Shown here piece after piece: positions 19,008 to 39,086 of a DNA stretch of 64,000 nt (position 1 is the stretch's first letter; each line of letters opens with the position of its first letter). Both the position numbers and the translations under genes were made by a program. The DNA comes from Paenibacillus swuensis (GTDB taxonomy: Bacteria > Bacillota > Bacilli > Paenibacillales > DY6), in assembly GCF_001644605.1 (NCBI RefSeq), contig NZ_CP011388.1, forward strand, positions 706,501-770,500, given 5' to 3'. The notes beneath the pieces are model-generated. The model had not been told where the DNA came from. It saw only the letters and a list, made by a program, of their open reading frames with translations, and ran no database searches.

Positions 19008-19150
19008 ATTATAAGGGTGAATGATGTACTTGTCTATGTTAATATTTTTATGCGCTAACGAATCCAATACACGCTAATTGCCCCTTTTCCGCCCCCTCGC
19101 CGTTCTAAACATTCCTGTATGAGCTAAGAAATGAGCTTGGACAAAAAACA

Positions 19151-19218
19151 GGAGCGCCTTGTATGATGGGGGTGTACGGGGTCATAGCCCTTAAGAAAAC
19201 CCATCAGGAGGCGCTCCA
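19151..19218 (+). promoter_or_regulatory. Inverted repeat covering the transposase ribosome site
   Basis: GGAGCGCCT at 19151-19159 is the exact reverse complement of AGGCGCTCC at 19210-19218. The second arm overlaps the AGGAGG ribosome site of the transposase (start 19221), so folding would hide it. This may limit transposase translation, especially from read-through transcripts, or may be part of the left end of the element. Confidence 0.55.
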
Positions 19219-19220
19219 TA

Positions 19221-20501
19221 ATGAATTTTACTAAAAAAGATCAAACAAATCAACGGATTGAACGAATCACCATGAAACATGCTGTCGTTGGAATCGACAT
19301 TGCTAAAGATGCACACGCTGCTCAAATTACGGACTACCGCGGTCGGGCACTTACCCCTCGTCATCTTGCTTTTACCAATACCCAGGAGGGGTATGAGAGA
19401 TTGCTTCGGTGGGTCAAGGATGTCCAGGCCAAGAAAGGGCTCTCCTATGTTGTTGTCGGGTTGGAACCTACAGGACATTACTGGTTTAATCTCGCCCATT
19501 GGCTTCGTGAGCAAGGTGTGAAAGTCGTTCTGGTCAATCCTGTAACGACTCATCGCAACAAGGAAAACCGCGACAACAGCCCTTCCAAGAACGACCCTAA
19601 AGACGCATTGGTCATCGCCGATGTGGTCAGCAGAGGATACTATACGGAGTACAACCCGCAAGCTGACACGTTTGAACAAATGAAGGCTATGGTAAGTCAG
19701 CGAGAGTTCTGGGTAAAGCAATCCGTCACTTACAAAAATCGCATCACGCGTTGGATCGACCTGTACTTCCCGGAGTTCAGTCAAGTGTTTCCCGACTGGA
19801 CTCGCCTCCGTTCACTGGCCACGCTCCGTATTTATCCCTTGCCTTCTGACCTGGTAAACATTTCGGCGGATCAGATATTAGATACATGGCGCGAGCAAGG
19901 AATGAAGCGAGTCGGAGGTGTAAGTGGCGTAGCCAAGGCGACAGAACTCCTGTCCGTTGCTCAGAGAAGTATTGGTAAAGCGAATGTCCCTGAAGAAGCT
20001 CGCCTAGAAATAAAATGCTTGTTGAAAGCGTATGATGAAGCTGTAGCCGCGCTTGATGCCATAGAACTCCACATGGAGACGTTGCTAGAGTCTCTGCCCC
20101 TTACGGAACAGCTCCAGAGCATTCACGGGCTTGGTTCCATGACCATTGCAACAATAATAGGCTGCGCGGGCGATCTTCGCCTTTATGCTCATGGACAGCA
20201 ACTCCTGCGGCGAGCCGGTCTTAATTTAGCGGAGTCAACATCCGGCAGGCATAAGGGTCAAATTAAACTTTCCAAACGCGGAGACGCAACCTTAAGAAAA
20301 CATTTCTTTTTAGCAGTGCTATGCCTGATCCGACAGCACCCGGACTTTAAAAGGTTTCATGAACACAATGTTAAAGTCAAAGGGATGAAGAAAATGGTGT
20401 CGGTGTTTAAACTCATTGGCAAGCTTGCCCGTATGATCGTGGGCATGATTCAGCGCGGTGAGTCGTACCGTTCGGATTTACATTTCCAAGCAGTAGCCTA
20501 A
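19221..20501 (+). CDS. IS110-family transposase (DEDD/RuvC-like plus Tnp domain)
   Basis: A protein of 426 residues from ATG 19221 with AGGAGG upstream; internal starts (for example residue 18) also exist. The N-terminal DEDD_Tnp_IS110 domain shows VVGIDIAKDAHAAQ (first Asp), VVGLEPTGHYW (Glu), and NDPKDALVIADVV (last Asp pair). The C-terminal Transposase_20 domain shows LQSIHGLGSMTIATIIG and RRAGLNLAESTSGRHKG, whose Ser in STSG corresponds to the catalytic serine region in this family. The enzyme is a recombinase that moves a circular element and is guided by an RNA encoded in the element in the cases studied. The gene is full length with no frameshift, so the copy may be active. Confidence 0.93.
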   Translation: MNFTKKDQTNQRIERITMKHAVVGIDIAKDAHAAQITDYRGRALTPRHLAFTNTQEGYERLLRWVKDVQAKKGLSYVVVGLEPTGHYWFNLAHWLREQGVKVVLVNPVTTHRNKENRDNSPSKNDPKDALVIADVVSRGYYTEYNPQADTFEQMKAMVSQREFWVKQSVTYKNRITRWIDLYFPEFSQVFPDWTRLRSLATLRIYPLPSDLVNISADQILDTWREQGMKRVGGVSGVAKATELLSVAQRSIGKANVPEEARLEIKCLLKAYDEAVAALDAIELHMETLLESLPLTEQLQSIHGLGSMTIATIIGCAGDLRLYAHGQQLLRRAGLNLAESTSGRHKGQIKLSKRGDATLRKHFFLAVLCLIRQHPDFKRFHEHNVKVKGMKKMVSVFKLIGKLARMIVGMIQRGESYRSDLHFQAVA

Positions 20502-20830
20502 TTCACGAACACGCAACACTATGAATATTGACTCATTCGCAGGATCTTACAATGCATAGAGAACCAAGTGTGGGATTCGTAAGGGCTTTGACCCATCTTC
20601 TAAACGCGACTGGTCTCCACGCCTTGGACAGGCATAACGAAGGAATGTAAGGGCAGTGACCCGTTGAGACATGGGAGGGTAAGCCTCCAAGGGACAAGTG
20701 GAGTGTGCACTATATGGAAACACTATTCGTGACTTCTATTCCTGCATGCCCAAGTTCATGTTTCGAGGCTGATCGCCCCATATTCCTACAATGTTGGTTT
20801 GTTCAAAGCGATGATATCCTGCGAATGAGT
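20502..20830 (+). ncRNA. Candidate IS110/IS1111 guide (bridge or seek) RNA region
   Basis: This stretch has no coding potential but clear structure. A perfect 15-base inverted repeat (ACTCATTCGCAGGAT at 20531-20545, its complement at 20816-20830) frames it. Inside, GTAAGGGC..TGACCC occurs twice (20579-20594 and 20647-20662, 2 mismatches in 16), and a small hairpin GGAGG/CCTCC lies at 20674-20688. IS1111-type members of the family encode their guide RNA in the 3' noncoding end, so this is the natural candidate. RNA limits and strand are not determined. Confidence 0.45.
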
Positions 20831-21031
20831 GAGGATTTATGAGAAAACCCCTTAAATACGAGGGAGGAATCCCAGCCACCTTATTACTTCATTTAACCCC
20901 TCATATAGCCCATTTCGCAGAAATAGCGTTGTATGGATTCGTTACATTTCCAAAAGGGTTCATTTGGGCCCAATAGCGTTACCTCAGTTCGTTAGAGATT
21001 CCTAACCCTACCCTAGCCTACCCTACCGCAC
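20831..21031. other. Spacer with a dispersed intergenic repeat module
   Basis: There is no gene here. TGGATTCGTTACATTT at 20934-20949 recurs, inverted, in the spacer at 27976-27991. Nothing else is recognisable. Confidence 0.5.
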
Positions 21032-36479: not shown

Positions 36480-36610
36480 GGTTATGAGCCTCCGTTTAAT
36501 ATCCATTTTTGAACCTATCATACCATAACTTGTCCCTCTGATTTGTGTTATGCTGTGGATGCGAATGTTGTGACATCACCCATATTTGGAAGAGAGGCGG
36601 AGGTAAGTTT

Positions 36611-37468
36611 ATGTATAAAGTGTCTACATATGAGGATGTTTATCAAGTGTATGAATTGTCGGATGAGCTCACGGGCTCTTGGGTGAAAGCGGCGCCGGAG
36701 CGCGGGGGTATTATTATCGGCTGGGGCGCTGGCGGTGAGGAGCTTCTGTATCTGGATCGGGCCACTTATGAGGATCCTGTGGCCAATATCCGGGGCGGGA
36801 ATCCGATTCTGTTTCCCATTAGCGGGCAGTTGGAGAATAAGCGCTACGAGTGGGACGGCGTGACCTATCCGATGGCAAATCACGGATTCGCGCGCAATAT
36901 GGCGTGGGAGGTTGTGGCAACGGGTACGGATGACGGGGCGTGGATGACAATCAAGCTCGTGTCGAACGAGATGACGCGGGAGAGCTATCCGTTCGACTTT
37001 GAAATCGTGTATACGTACCGACTTCGGGACGGCGTGCTGGCGATTGAACAGGAATACCGGAACCTGTCCGAAGCACCGATGCCGTTCTATGCGGGTTTCC
37101 ATCCGTATTTTGCGGCGGATGGGAAGGATTTGGCGTATGATACGGACGCCCGGACGTATCTGGACTACAACGACGGCGAGGTCAAGTCGTATACGGGCAG
37201 CCTGGATCTGACGCCGATGGTTGAATCGGCGGCGTTCCTGGATGCCCAGCGGTACGAGATCGGCTTTGAGCCGTCGGCGGGCCGGAGCATCCGGCTGGAA
37301 TACAGCGACGACTTCAAGTACGTCGTGCTGTGGTCTGTGGCGGGACGCGAGTTCGTCTGCGTCGAGCCGTGGATGGCGCTGACCGGCGAGTTTCACCGGC
37401 GGGCGGAGCTGGTCTACGCGCCGCCGGGCGGTGCGGTCCGCGCGGAGCTGCGCATGCGCCGGGTTTGA
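36611..37468 (+). CDS. Aldose 1-epimerase-like protein
   Basis: A protein of 285 residues from ATG 36611, which has GGAGG 8 bases upstream. It has the galactose-mutarotase beta-sandwich pattern: GGNPILFPISGQLENKRYEW, YPMANHGFARNMAWEV (the HGFAR His is a family active-site residue), FYAGFHPYF (second His), and a C-terminal acidic residue in FVCVEPWMALTGEF. The family interconverts sugar anomers; some members act on hexose 6-phosphates. No transporter or sugar kinase adjoins it, so the sugar is unknown. The last third is very GC-rich. Confidence 0.88.
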   Translation: MYKVSTYEDVYQVYELSDELTGSWVKAAPERGGIIIGWGAGGEELLYLDRATYEDPVANIRGGNPILFPISGQLENKRYEWDGVTYPMANHGFARNMAWEVVATGTDDGAWMTIKLVSNEMTRESYPFDFEIVYTYRLRDGVLAIEQEYRNLSEAPMPFYAGFHPYFAADGKDLAYDTDARTYLDYNDGEVKSYTGSLDLTPMVESAAFLDAQRYEIGFEPSAGRSIRLEYSDDFKYVVLWSVAGREFVCVEPWMALTGEFHRRAELVYAPPGGAVRAELRMRRV

Positions 37469-37760
37469 TGCAGGGGCGGGGCGCATGGGGCGGGTTTGAT
37501 GAGGTAACTGCATGCGGAATTGCGCATGCGGACGACTGTGCGCGCAACGTTGCGCATGGGGCAGTTTGAGGAAATAGCATTCGAACAGCGTAATTTTGAT
37601 TCTATGAAACGAGCCCGATTGGATGGACAGCGGAGAGCTTGCCAGACGGCAGGCTCCTTTTTTAATCACATGGAAAGTAAAAGTTTCTCGCCTCACGAAA
37701 ACGGAACTCCAATCGGCATCATAACCTACCCCATAACGCGCCCGCTCAATCGGCAAGCGC
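37469..37760. other. GC-rich spacer with remnants
   Basis: No gene is supported. A run of GCGCATG-type repeats (37480-37560) follows the epimerase stop, and the terminator described separately lies inside. Confidence 0.4.
37635..37663 (+). terminator. Rho-independent terminator downstream of the epimerase gene
   Basis: GAGCTTGCC pairs with GGCAGGCTC (9 bp, one G-U) around AGAC and is followed by CTTTTTTT. It is 167 bases after the stop codon at 37468. Confidence 0.75.
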
Positions 37761-38320
37761 TCGCCCTAACGGCCTTTTGCGCCGTTAGATGGCGGGGCGC
37801 TCGCCCTAACGGCCTTTTGCGCCGTTAGACGGCGGGGCGCTCGCCCTAACGGCCTTTTGCGCCGTTAGGGGGCGGGGCGCTCGCCCTAACGGCCTTTTGC
37901 GCCGTTAGACGGCGGGGCGCTCGCCCTAACGGCCTTTTGCGCCGTTAGATGGCGGGGTGCTCGCCCTAACGGCCTTTTGCGCCGTTAGCGGGCGGGGCGC
38001 TCGCCCTAATGGCCTTTTGCGCCGTTAGATGGCGGGGCGCTCGCCCTAATGGCCTTTTGCGCCGTTAGCGGGCGGGGTGCTCGCCCTAACGGCCTTTTGC
38101 GCCGTTAGACGGCGGGGCGCTCGCCCTAACGGCCTTTTGCGCCGTTAGGGGGCGGGGCGCTCGCCCTAACGGCCTTTTGCGCCGTTAGACGGCGGGGCGC
38201 TCGCCCTAACGGCCTTTTGCGCCGTTAGCGGGCGGGGCGCTCGCCCTAACGGCCTTTTGCGCCGTTAGCGGGCGGGGCGCTCGCCCTAACGGCCTTTTGC
38301 GCCGTTAGCGGGCGGGGTAT
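37761..38320. repeat. Fourteen tandem 40-bp hairpin repeats
   Basis: The unit starts TCGCCCTAACGGCCTTTTGC and ends in GGCGGGGCGC, with period exactly 40 from 37761 to 38320. In each unit CTAACGGC and GCCGTTAG form a perfect 8-bp stem around CTTTTGC. Copies 7 and 8 have CTAATGGC, which keeps pairing through G-U. The units are almost identical except for two bases after GTTAG, which read AT, AC, GG, AC, AT, CG, AT, CG, AC, GG, AC, CG, CG, CG. The block AC-GG-AC occurs twice (copies 2-4 and 9-11), indicating duplication of multi-unit segments. A 40-base period is not a multiple of three, so this is noncoding. Confidence 0.95.
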
Positions 38321-38465
38321 TTTATTTCTAATAGTAGTGGACCAAATCGACTTCATCATTCCCCCTCCGAGCCGTTTGCATGGACCATCTGTAAGTTGAG
38401 TATAATACCATTTGTTACCTATGGAAATGGCAGATCATTGCATCGTTGGGAGGGAGGGGAATTTC

Positions 38466-39086
38466 ATGTCTGAAACAGCAAACCGCCGTTTGGTCCTAAC
38501 TTTGTTGTTGTTATTAGCTGCTGTGCTCCTATGGTCCGTTATAGATGCAAACCGCTATTATATCTGGTTCGCCGAGGCAATGCCTGCGCTTGCGATCGTT
38601 GCAATTCTAATTATTACGTACAAACGTTTCAAATTTTCTTCGCTATTCTATGTGCTTCTATTCGTCAGTTTCGTCTGGATGCTGATTGGTGCGCACTATA
38701 CGTATGAGAGAGTACCCTTGTTTAACTGGATTCGGGATGAGTTTGGGCAAAACCGGAATCATTTTGATCGAATCGGACATTATTTCCAGGGGATTATCCC
38801 TGCGCTTGCGGTGAAGGAACTGGCGTGGCGATTGAACCTGATCCCGCACCGTAACGTTCGTGCTATCGTCGCCCTCTCCTTCACTTTGGCGGTCAGCGGC
38901 TTCTATGAAATCGTAGAATTTCTCGCCTACTTAGCCTTTGGGGGCGAAGCTGATGATTTTCTGGGTCATCAAGGCGATGAATGGGACGCCCAATGGGATA
39001 TGATATGGGCCTTCTGCGGCGGACTTACCAGCATCTTGCTGCTCGATAAACTACATGACAAGCAGATCCGGAAGCTGAATCGATGA
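38466..39086 (+). CDS. DUF2238 (YjdF-like) membrane protein
   Basis: A protein of 206 residues from ATG 38466, which has GGGAGGGAGGGG upstream. It has five or six membrane segments. The DUF2238 hallmarks are visible: RNHFDRIGHYFQGIIPALAV, SGFYEIVEFLAYLAFGGEAD and LGHQGDEWDAQWDMIWAFCG, with many conserved charged residues in or near membrane segments (Asp, His, Glu). The role of the family is not established. It lies 146 bases after the 40-bp repeat array and is followed by its own terminator. Confidence 0.85.
   Translation: MSETANRRLVLTLLLLLAAVLLWSVIDANRYYIWFAEAMPALAIVAILIITYKRFKFSSLFYVLLFVSFVWMLIGAHYTYERVPLFNWIRDEFGQNRNHFDRIGHYFQGIIPALAVKELAWRLNLIPHRNVRAIVALSFTLAVSGFYEIVEFLAYLAFGGEADDFLGHQGDEWDAQWDMIWAFCGGLTSILLLDKLHDKQIRKLNR

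Follow-up and report, generated by a model that had tools for sequence, protein, structure and literature searches.

The described systems closest to the locus reported here are short extragenic palindromes and dispersed minisatellites, the latter exemplified by the mycobacterial MIRU loci. Among the palindromes, REP and BIME elements include GTAG- and CGTC-tagged REPs (PMC3733652, PMC2817692). The paper on these two tags, cited with the same accessions, reports CGTC REPs without a dedicated transposase and makes no mention of Paenibacillus, Brevibacillus or Firmicutes. REP elements also contain target sites of IS110-family elements, as described for IS621 and ISPpu9/10 (PMC1525189, PMC11187229). 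Here, we analyse a 14-unit array of 40-bp hairpin repeats in the window, the whole 64,000-nucleotide stretch of DNA examined, together with related arrays in the same genome and related boxes across Paenibacillales. At a probability of about one half, we read the array as the local tandem amplification of a 21–23-bp dyad-symmetric box from a REP-like extragenic family of Paenibacillales, the boxes of which would be DNA docking sites for a putative protein. A literature search confined to open-access papers, and thus weak evidence of novelty, returned no description of this box family for Paenibacillus, and the family seems to be undescribed in Paenibacillales.

Structure of the 40-bp array

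The array comprises 14.0 copies with a period of 40 bp, 95% matches and no indels (TRF; Table 1). Each unit consists of a 23-bp hairpin core, CTAACGGC-CTTTTGC-GCCGTTAG, and a 17-bp spacer, and the units run head-to-tail. Copies of the core, 14 in all, start exactly 40 bp apart (37766–38308), and 100 dinucleotide shuffles of the window contain none (mean 0.00, largest 0), so the 14 hairpin repeats recognized in an earlier, sequence-only reading of this DNA are real. That reading had every unit as a perfect hairpin, which holds for 12 of the 14 cores, with their 8-bp stems fully paired; in the other two, units 7 and 8, a single C-to-T change gives CTAATGGC and, with it, a T·G pair. Its view that variation is almost confined to a two-base site stands with minor corrections: the site reads, in unit order, AT AC GG AC AT CG AT CG AC GG AC CG CG CG, and changes are also present in units 7 and 8, as above, and in units 6 and 9, where GTGC replaces GCGC. 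The AC-GG-AC block that it described does occur twice, in units 2–4 and 9–11, and this recurrence, together with spacers that are uniform within arrays and different between them, supports the proposed growth by multi-unit duplication. For either strand, the folding of the array is better than that of dinucleotide shuffles (z −6.1 and −7.4). Regularly spaced palindromic repeats are also features of CRISPR arrays, but CRISPR spacers are unique, whereas the 17-bp spacers here are 91% identical to one another; this identity rules out a CRISPR array, the probability of which we put at practically nil.

The array has the position given in the sequence-only reading, with a plus-strand gene on each side: an aldose 1-epimerase gene upstream and a DUF2238 gene downstream. 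A terminator-like hairpin separates the array from the former. The array stems are followed by no T run on either strand, and the other four arrays of the genome yielded neither a terminator-like nor a promoter-like site. Intrinsic termination by the array was rejected on the missing T run and the lack of a terminator-like site at the sister arrays.

Table 1 Features of the window and the sister arrays (window positions unless marked C1, the contig of the genome)
Feature	Position	Strand	Remarks
Box 1 of four-box element	19056–19076	+	TAACGAATCCAATACACGCTA
Box 2	19106–20883	+	Split after CTAA by IS110-family insertion; insert about 1756 bp
IS110-family element	19109–20866 (approximate)		
Transposase gene of this element	19221–20501	+	426 aa; PF01548 and PF02371
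Box 3, inverted	20924–20944	−	
Box 4, inverted	20974–20994	−	50 bp from box 3
Aldose 1-epimerase gene	36545–37468	+	PF01263; upstream of array; start may be 36611
Intrinsic-terminator-like hairpin, then T run	37635–37656	+	Between epimerase gene and array
14-unit direct 40-bp array	37757–38317	+	T-rich loop (CTTTTGC) on + strand
First hairpin core	37766–37788	+	8-bp stem, 7-nt loop; every 40 bp to 38286–38308
First 17-bp spacer	37789–37805	+	Opens with two-base variable site (AT/AC/GG/CG)
DUF2238 membrane-protein gene	38412–39086	+	PF09997; downstream of array; true start probably further in
Sister array 1	C1 891773–892158		
Sister array 2	C1 967243–967547		
Sister array 3	C1 2791897–2792280		
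Sister array 4	C1 2919846–2920280		

Related arrays in the genome and in Paenibacillus nanensis

The host genome (5.01 Mb, a single contig) contains five arrays in all, that of the window included, with periods of 39–41 bp (40 ± 1), related cores and different spacers. One sister array is found in the gap between a glgD-type and a glgA-type gene, one follows a ThiF-family gene, one adjoins a transglutaminase-like gene and one separates a GGDEF/EAL gene from a convergent gene. Core identity between the five arrays is 0.86, and spacer identity is 0.78–0.91 within arrays, 0.52 between them and 0.36 after shuffling. Outside the arrays, the core-like sites among the matches listed (three mismatches at most) are scattered singles.

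An 80-bp query gave no match in 40 other genomes of the order. A pattern search of the order and of named genomes identified related boxes in, among others, P. nanensis, P. faecis and Paenibacillus sp. NEAU-GSW1. P. nanensis has arrays with a 51-bp period at no fewer than, and thus at least, 11 loci, each of 7–22 units, with spacer identities of 0.61–0.80 within arrays, 0.44 between them and 0.31 after shuffling. Because spacer identity in the two species is high within arrays, lower between them and still above the shuffled value, it appears to fit a common origin followed by local homogenization. Rfam covariance models gave no match for the window array and no relevant match for nine loci with related boxes. 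No plasmid, phage or viral-contig match was obtained, and such an origin was rejected on that basis.

In P. faecis (G382; L035, L047 and L060), TAACGGCCTTTTGGGCCGTTA is dispersed as about 33 single copies with a conserved downstream flank, and the genome has 14 Y1_Tnp matches; these copies are possibly a separate, RAYT-linked REP family. No near-exact or one-mismatch-consistent box family was found alongside the P. faecis Y1 genes.

A four-box element across Paenibacillales

In many Paenibacillales, the pattern TAACGG-N(5–12)-CCGTTA far exceeds its reversed-pattern control (boxes/control: 180/6 in G094, 179/11 in G117, 144/21 in G103, 129/12 in G151 and 38/3 in the host genome); in other members of the order it does not rise above background. 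Even species of a single genus differ in copy number, some being at background and others having well over 100 boxes. The generalized box TAACGG-N9-CCGTTA is likewise strongly enriched in many members of the order. Most genomes of a class-wide sample are at background, with 49 boxes versus 0 in G522 and 27 versus 2 in G406; these two belong to other families of the class, so enrichment extends beyond the order, and G522 has four-box elements with a 51/62/51 spacing.

Most enriched genomes carry the boxes as a dyad-symmetric element of two forward and two inverted copies. The search for four-box elements, which scored the best 150 candidates of each genome, yielded 59 distinct elements, of which 58 had a spacing of 50/62/50 bp (±1–2 bp). 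Over all 59, the centre spacings are 49–52 bp for boxes 1–2, 61–62 bp (once 72) for boxes 2–3 and 49–52 bp for boxes 3–4. The exception (L106; 51/72/51) is longer by about one helical turn. Between genomes, the boxes of these elements are 0.62 identical and the spacers 0.31, near chance; that spacer length is fixed while spacer sequence is free speaks for a DNA complex assembled on the helix. The spacings share a best helical fit near 10.2–10.4 bp per turn, which is suggestive only because independent spacing classes are few. Whole four-box elements are tandemly duplicated at L148 (1450–2709), L220 (2413–2988) and L221 (2671–3240), with a period of about 250–260 bp.

The host genome has about ten four-box elements with a variant box, TAACGAAC...ACGCTATT, which is unlike its own array boxes (TAACGGCC...), and the P. 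nanensis stretches that surround arrays yielded no four-box elements. The common ancestry that we infer for array boxes and four-box boxes therefore draws on two features, the common 21-bp frame and the ends TAACG/CGTTA.

One four-box element is located in the window (19056–20994). Its second box is split by an IS110-family insertion, and the spacing between boxes 2 and 3 is 62 bp without the insert. Identical transposase genes lie within boxes at L220 (1020–2300) and L221 (3353–4633), at the same insertion point, so that three such insertions occupy the same box position. In each, the target is a box of the four-box type, at CTAA^GGAA or a close variant; no IS110-family insertion was seen within the 40-bp arrays.

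Genomic setting

According to a simple codon-usage gene caller, of the gaps that hold four-box elements, 21 are convergent, 23 tandem and none divergent, some of these elements sharing a locus or genome. The host arrays are in 2 convergent, 3 tandem and 0 divergent gaps (n = 5), and those of P. nanensis in 4, 6 and 0, respectively (10 classifiable). All classified elements and arrays are extragenic and adjoin the 3′ end of a gene. A circle has as many convergent as divergent gene pairs, and 27 convergent versus 0 divergent gaps thus represent a strong bias away from promoter regions. The sequence-only reading would have counted it against its own proposal if the unit had proved to be a common dispersed element of no fixed context. 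Half of this holds: the element occurs dispersed, yet in a consistent setting, outside genes, beside their 3′ ends and never in divergent gaps. The T-loop strand follows the gene 3′ end in all five host arrays and runs into the gene 3′ end in 10 of 11 P. nanensis arrays.

Origin and possible function

Protein binding, DNA topology and replication slippage had all been offered as explanations of the array. These options find partial support, docking gaining it indirectly from the fixed, near-helical spacing of related boxes in other genomes, with the protein itself putative. A reading confined to the window could not show that the unit is probably one member of a repeat family that extends through the genome and the order. 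In the reading that we favour, the box would be a DNA-level docking site for a probably dimeric protein, and neighbouring boxes, at spacings near 4, 5, 6 and 7 turns, would lie on about the same face of the helix. A bound complex might act in chromosome organization, in topology or in mobilization of the element. Array growth would come from slippage, or from unequal recombination of one unit with another, with hairpins promoting it, and each locus would be homogenized separately; that arrays persist at 3′ ends between genes may be due to the slight harm that they cause in such places. A broader version, which we put forward tentatively and consider rather doubtful, has an order-wide nucleoprotein element in which a putative protein on four same-face boxes, 50/62/50 bp apart, would serve chromosome organization, the 40- and 51-bp arrays being amplified multi-site versions.

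The chief rival to docking sites is neutral, hairpin-driven slippage, in which replication slippage multiplies the hairpin-forming unit and the stem arms stay complementary through template switching, with no bound protein and no function. The repeated AC-GG-AC block, the locus-specific spacers and the strong self-complementarity of both strands suit such a minisatellite, as does the orientation of arrays to neighbouring genes, which differs between species (5/5 in the host versus 10/11 opposite in P. nanensis). Hairpins with compensatory changes can both arise and be kept up through template switching (PMC8794818). Neutral slippage leaves unexplained, however, both the 50/62/50 spacing with freely changing spacer sequence and the recurrence of one 40-bp period in five arrays with differing spacers, and we regard it as possible though not probable. 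If the hairpins instead acted in transcripts, as 3′-UTR stabilizers or terminators, their location at gene 3′ ends would be expected. P. nanensis stems do covary (C-G/T-A, or U-A in RNA) at three pairs, in excess of a shuffle control, and U·G exceeds C·A on the T-loop strand (85 versus 28). This covariation is no proof of RNA function, because the units are related to one another and template switching could produce the same pattern. An RNA function is further weakened by the inconsistent sense strand: the T-loop follows the gene in the host and the A-loop in P. nanensis, where the wobble excess becomes C·A mismatches, and the host arrays have U·G and C·A in equal number (5 versus 5). The window array also lies beyond the terminator-like hairpin, its stems are without a T run, the four-box half element has no consensus base pair, and the Rfam comparison gave no match; action as RNA is accordingly improbable.

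A non-autonomous, MITE-like element, spread by a putative transposase that binds the boxes, would account for box numbers that vary from background to well over 100 within a genus, for the additional tandem copies of four-box elements and for the inverted arrangement of box pairs. A search for RAYT (Y1_Tnp, PF01797), however, gave no match in the host genome, P. nanensis, G094, G117, G156, G113 or G131, and a RAYT/REPIN identity was rejected for the host genome on this ground. Every strong half-element examined has its mirror half about 110 bp away, separated transposon ends were not seen and no target duplication was recognized. The IS110-family element lies inside boxes, which are thus its targets and not its boundaries. 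We consider MITE-like spread unlikely.

If the boxes are docking sites, they could lead to the identification of one chromosome-binding protein common to a large group of soil bacteria, with the arrays as ready-made high-affinity baits. If the arrays are neutral, they show cleanly, in nature, how hairpin arrays grow and become homogenized at many loci while keeping a single fixed period. In both cases, the existence of REP-like elements in genomes that lack RAYT is relevant to the spread of such repeats.

Comparison with known systems

As palindromes of 20–40 bp that are extragenic and present in many copies per genome, the boxes conform to the description of REP elements. They further resemble REP and BIME elements in being often paired in inverted orientation and in being targets of the IS110 family (for REPs, PMC1525189). 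They differ in that the Paenibacillales boxes are either grouped in fours with fixed 50/62/50 spacing or strung together in long direct arrays, and in that the array genomes are without RAYT. Read by eye, the window array units show no GTAG or CGTC tag beside the core. The IS110-family element was found three times at one fixed point of a repeated palindrome, as in the described REP targets, but here that palindrome is the four-box box, and the 40-bp arrays are free of visible insertions. As direct tandem repeats at several intergenic loci, the arrays also qualify as minisatellites or VNTRs, and they share with MIRU-type loci direct repeats of 40–100 bp at several intergenic sites per genome. 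Unlike those minisatellites, their units are built on a conserved palindrome common to all arrays and combined with spacers specific to each locus.
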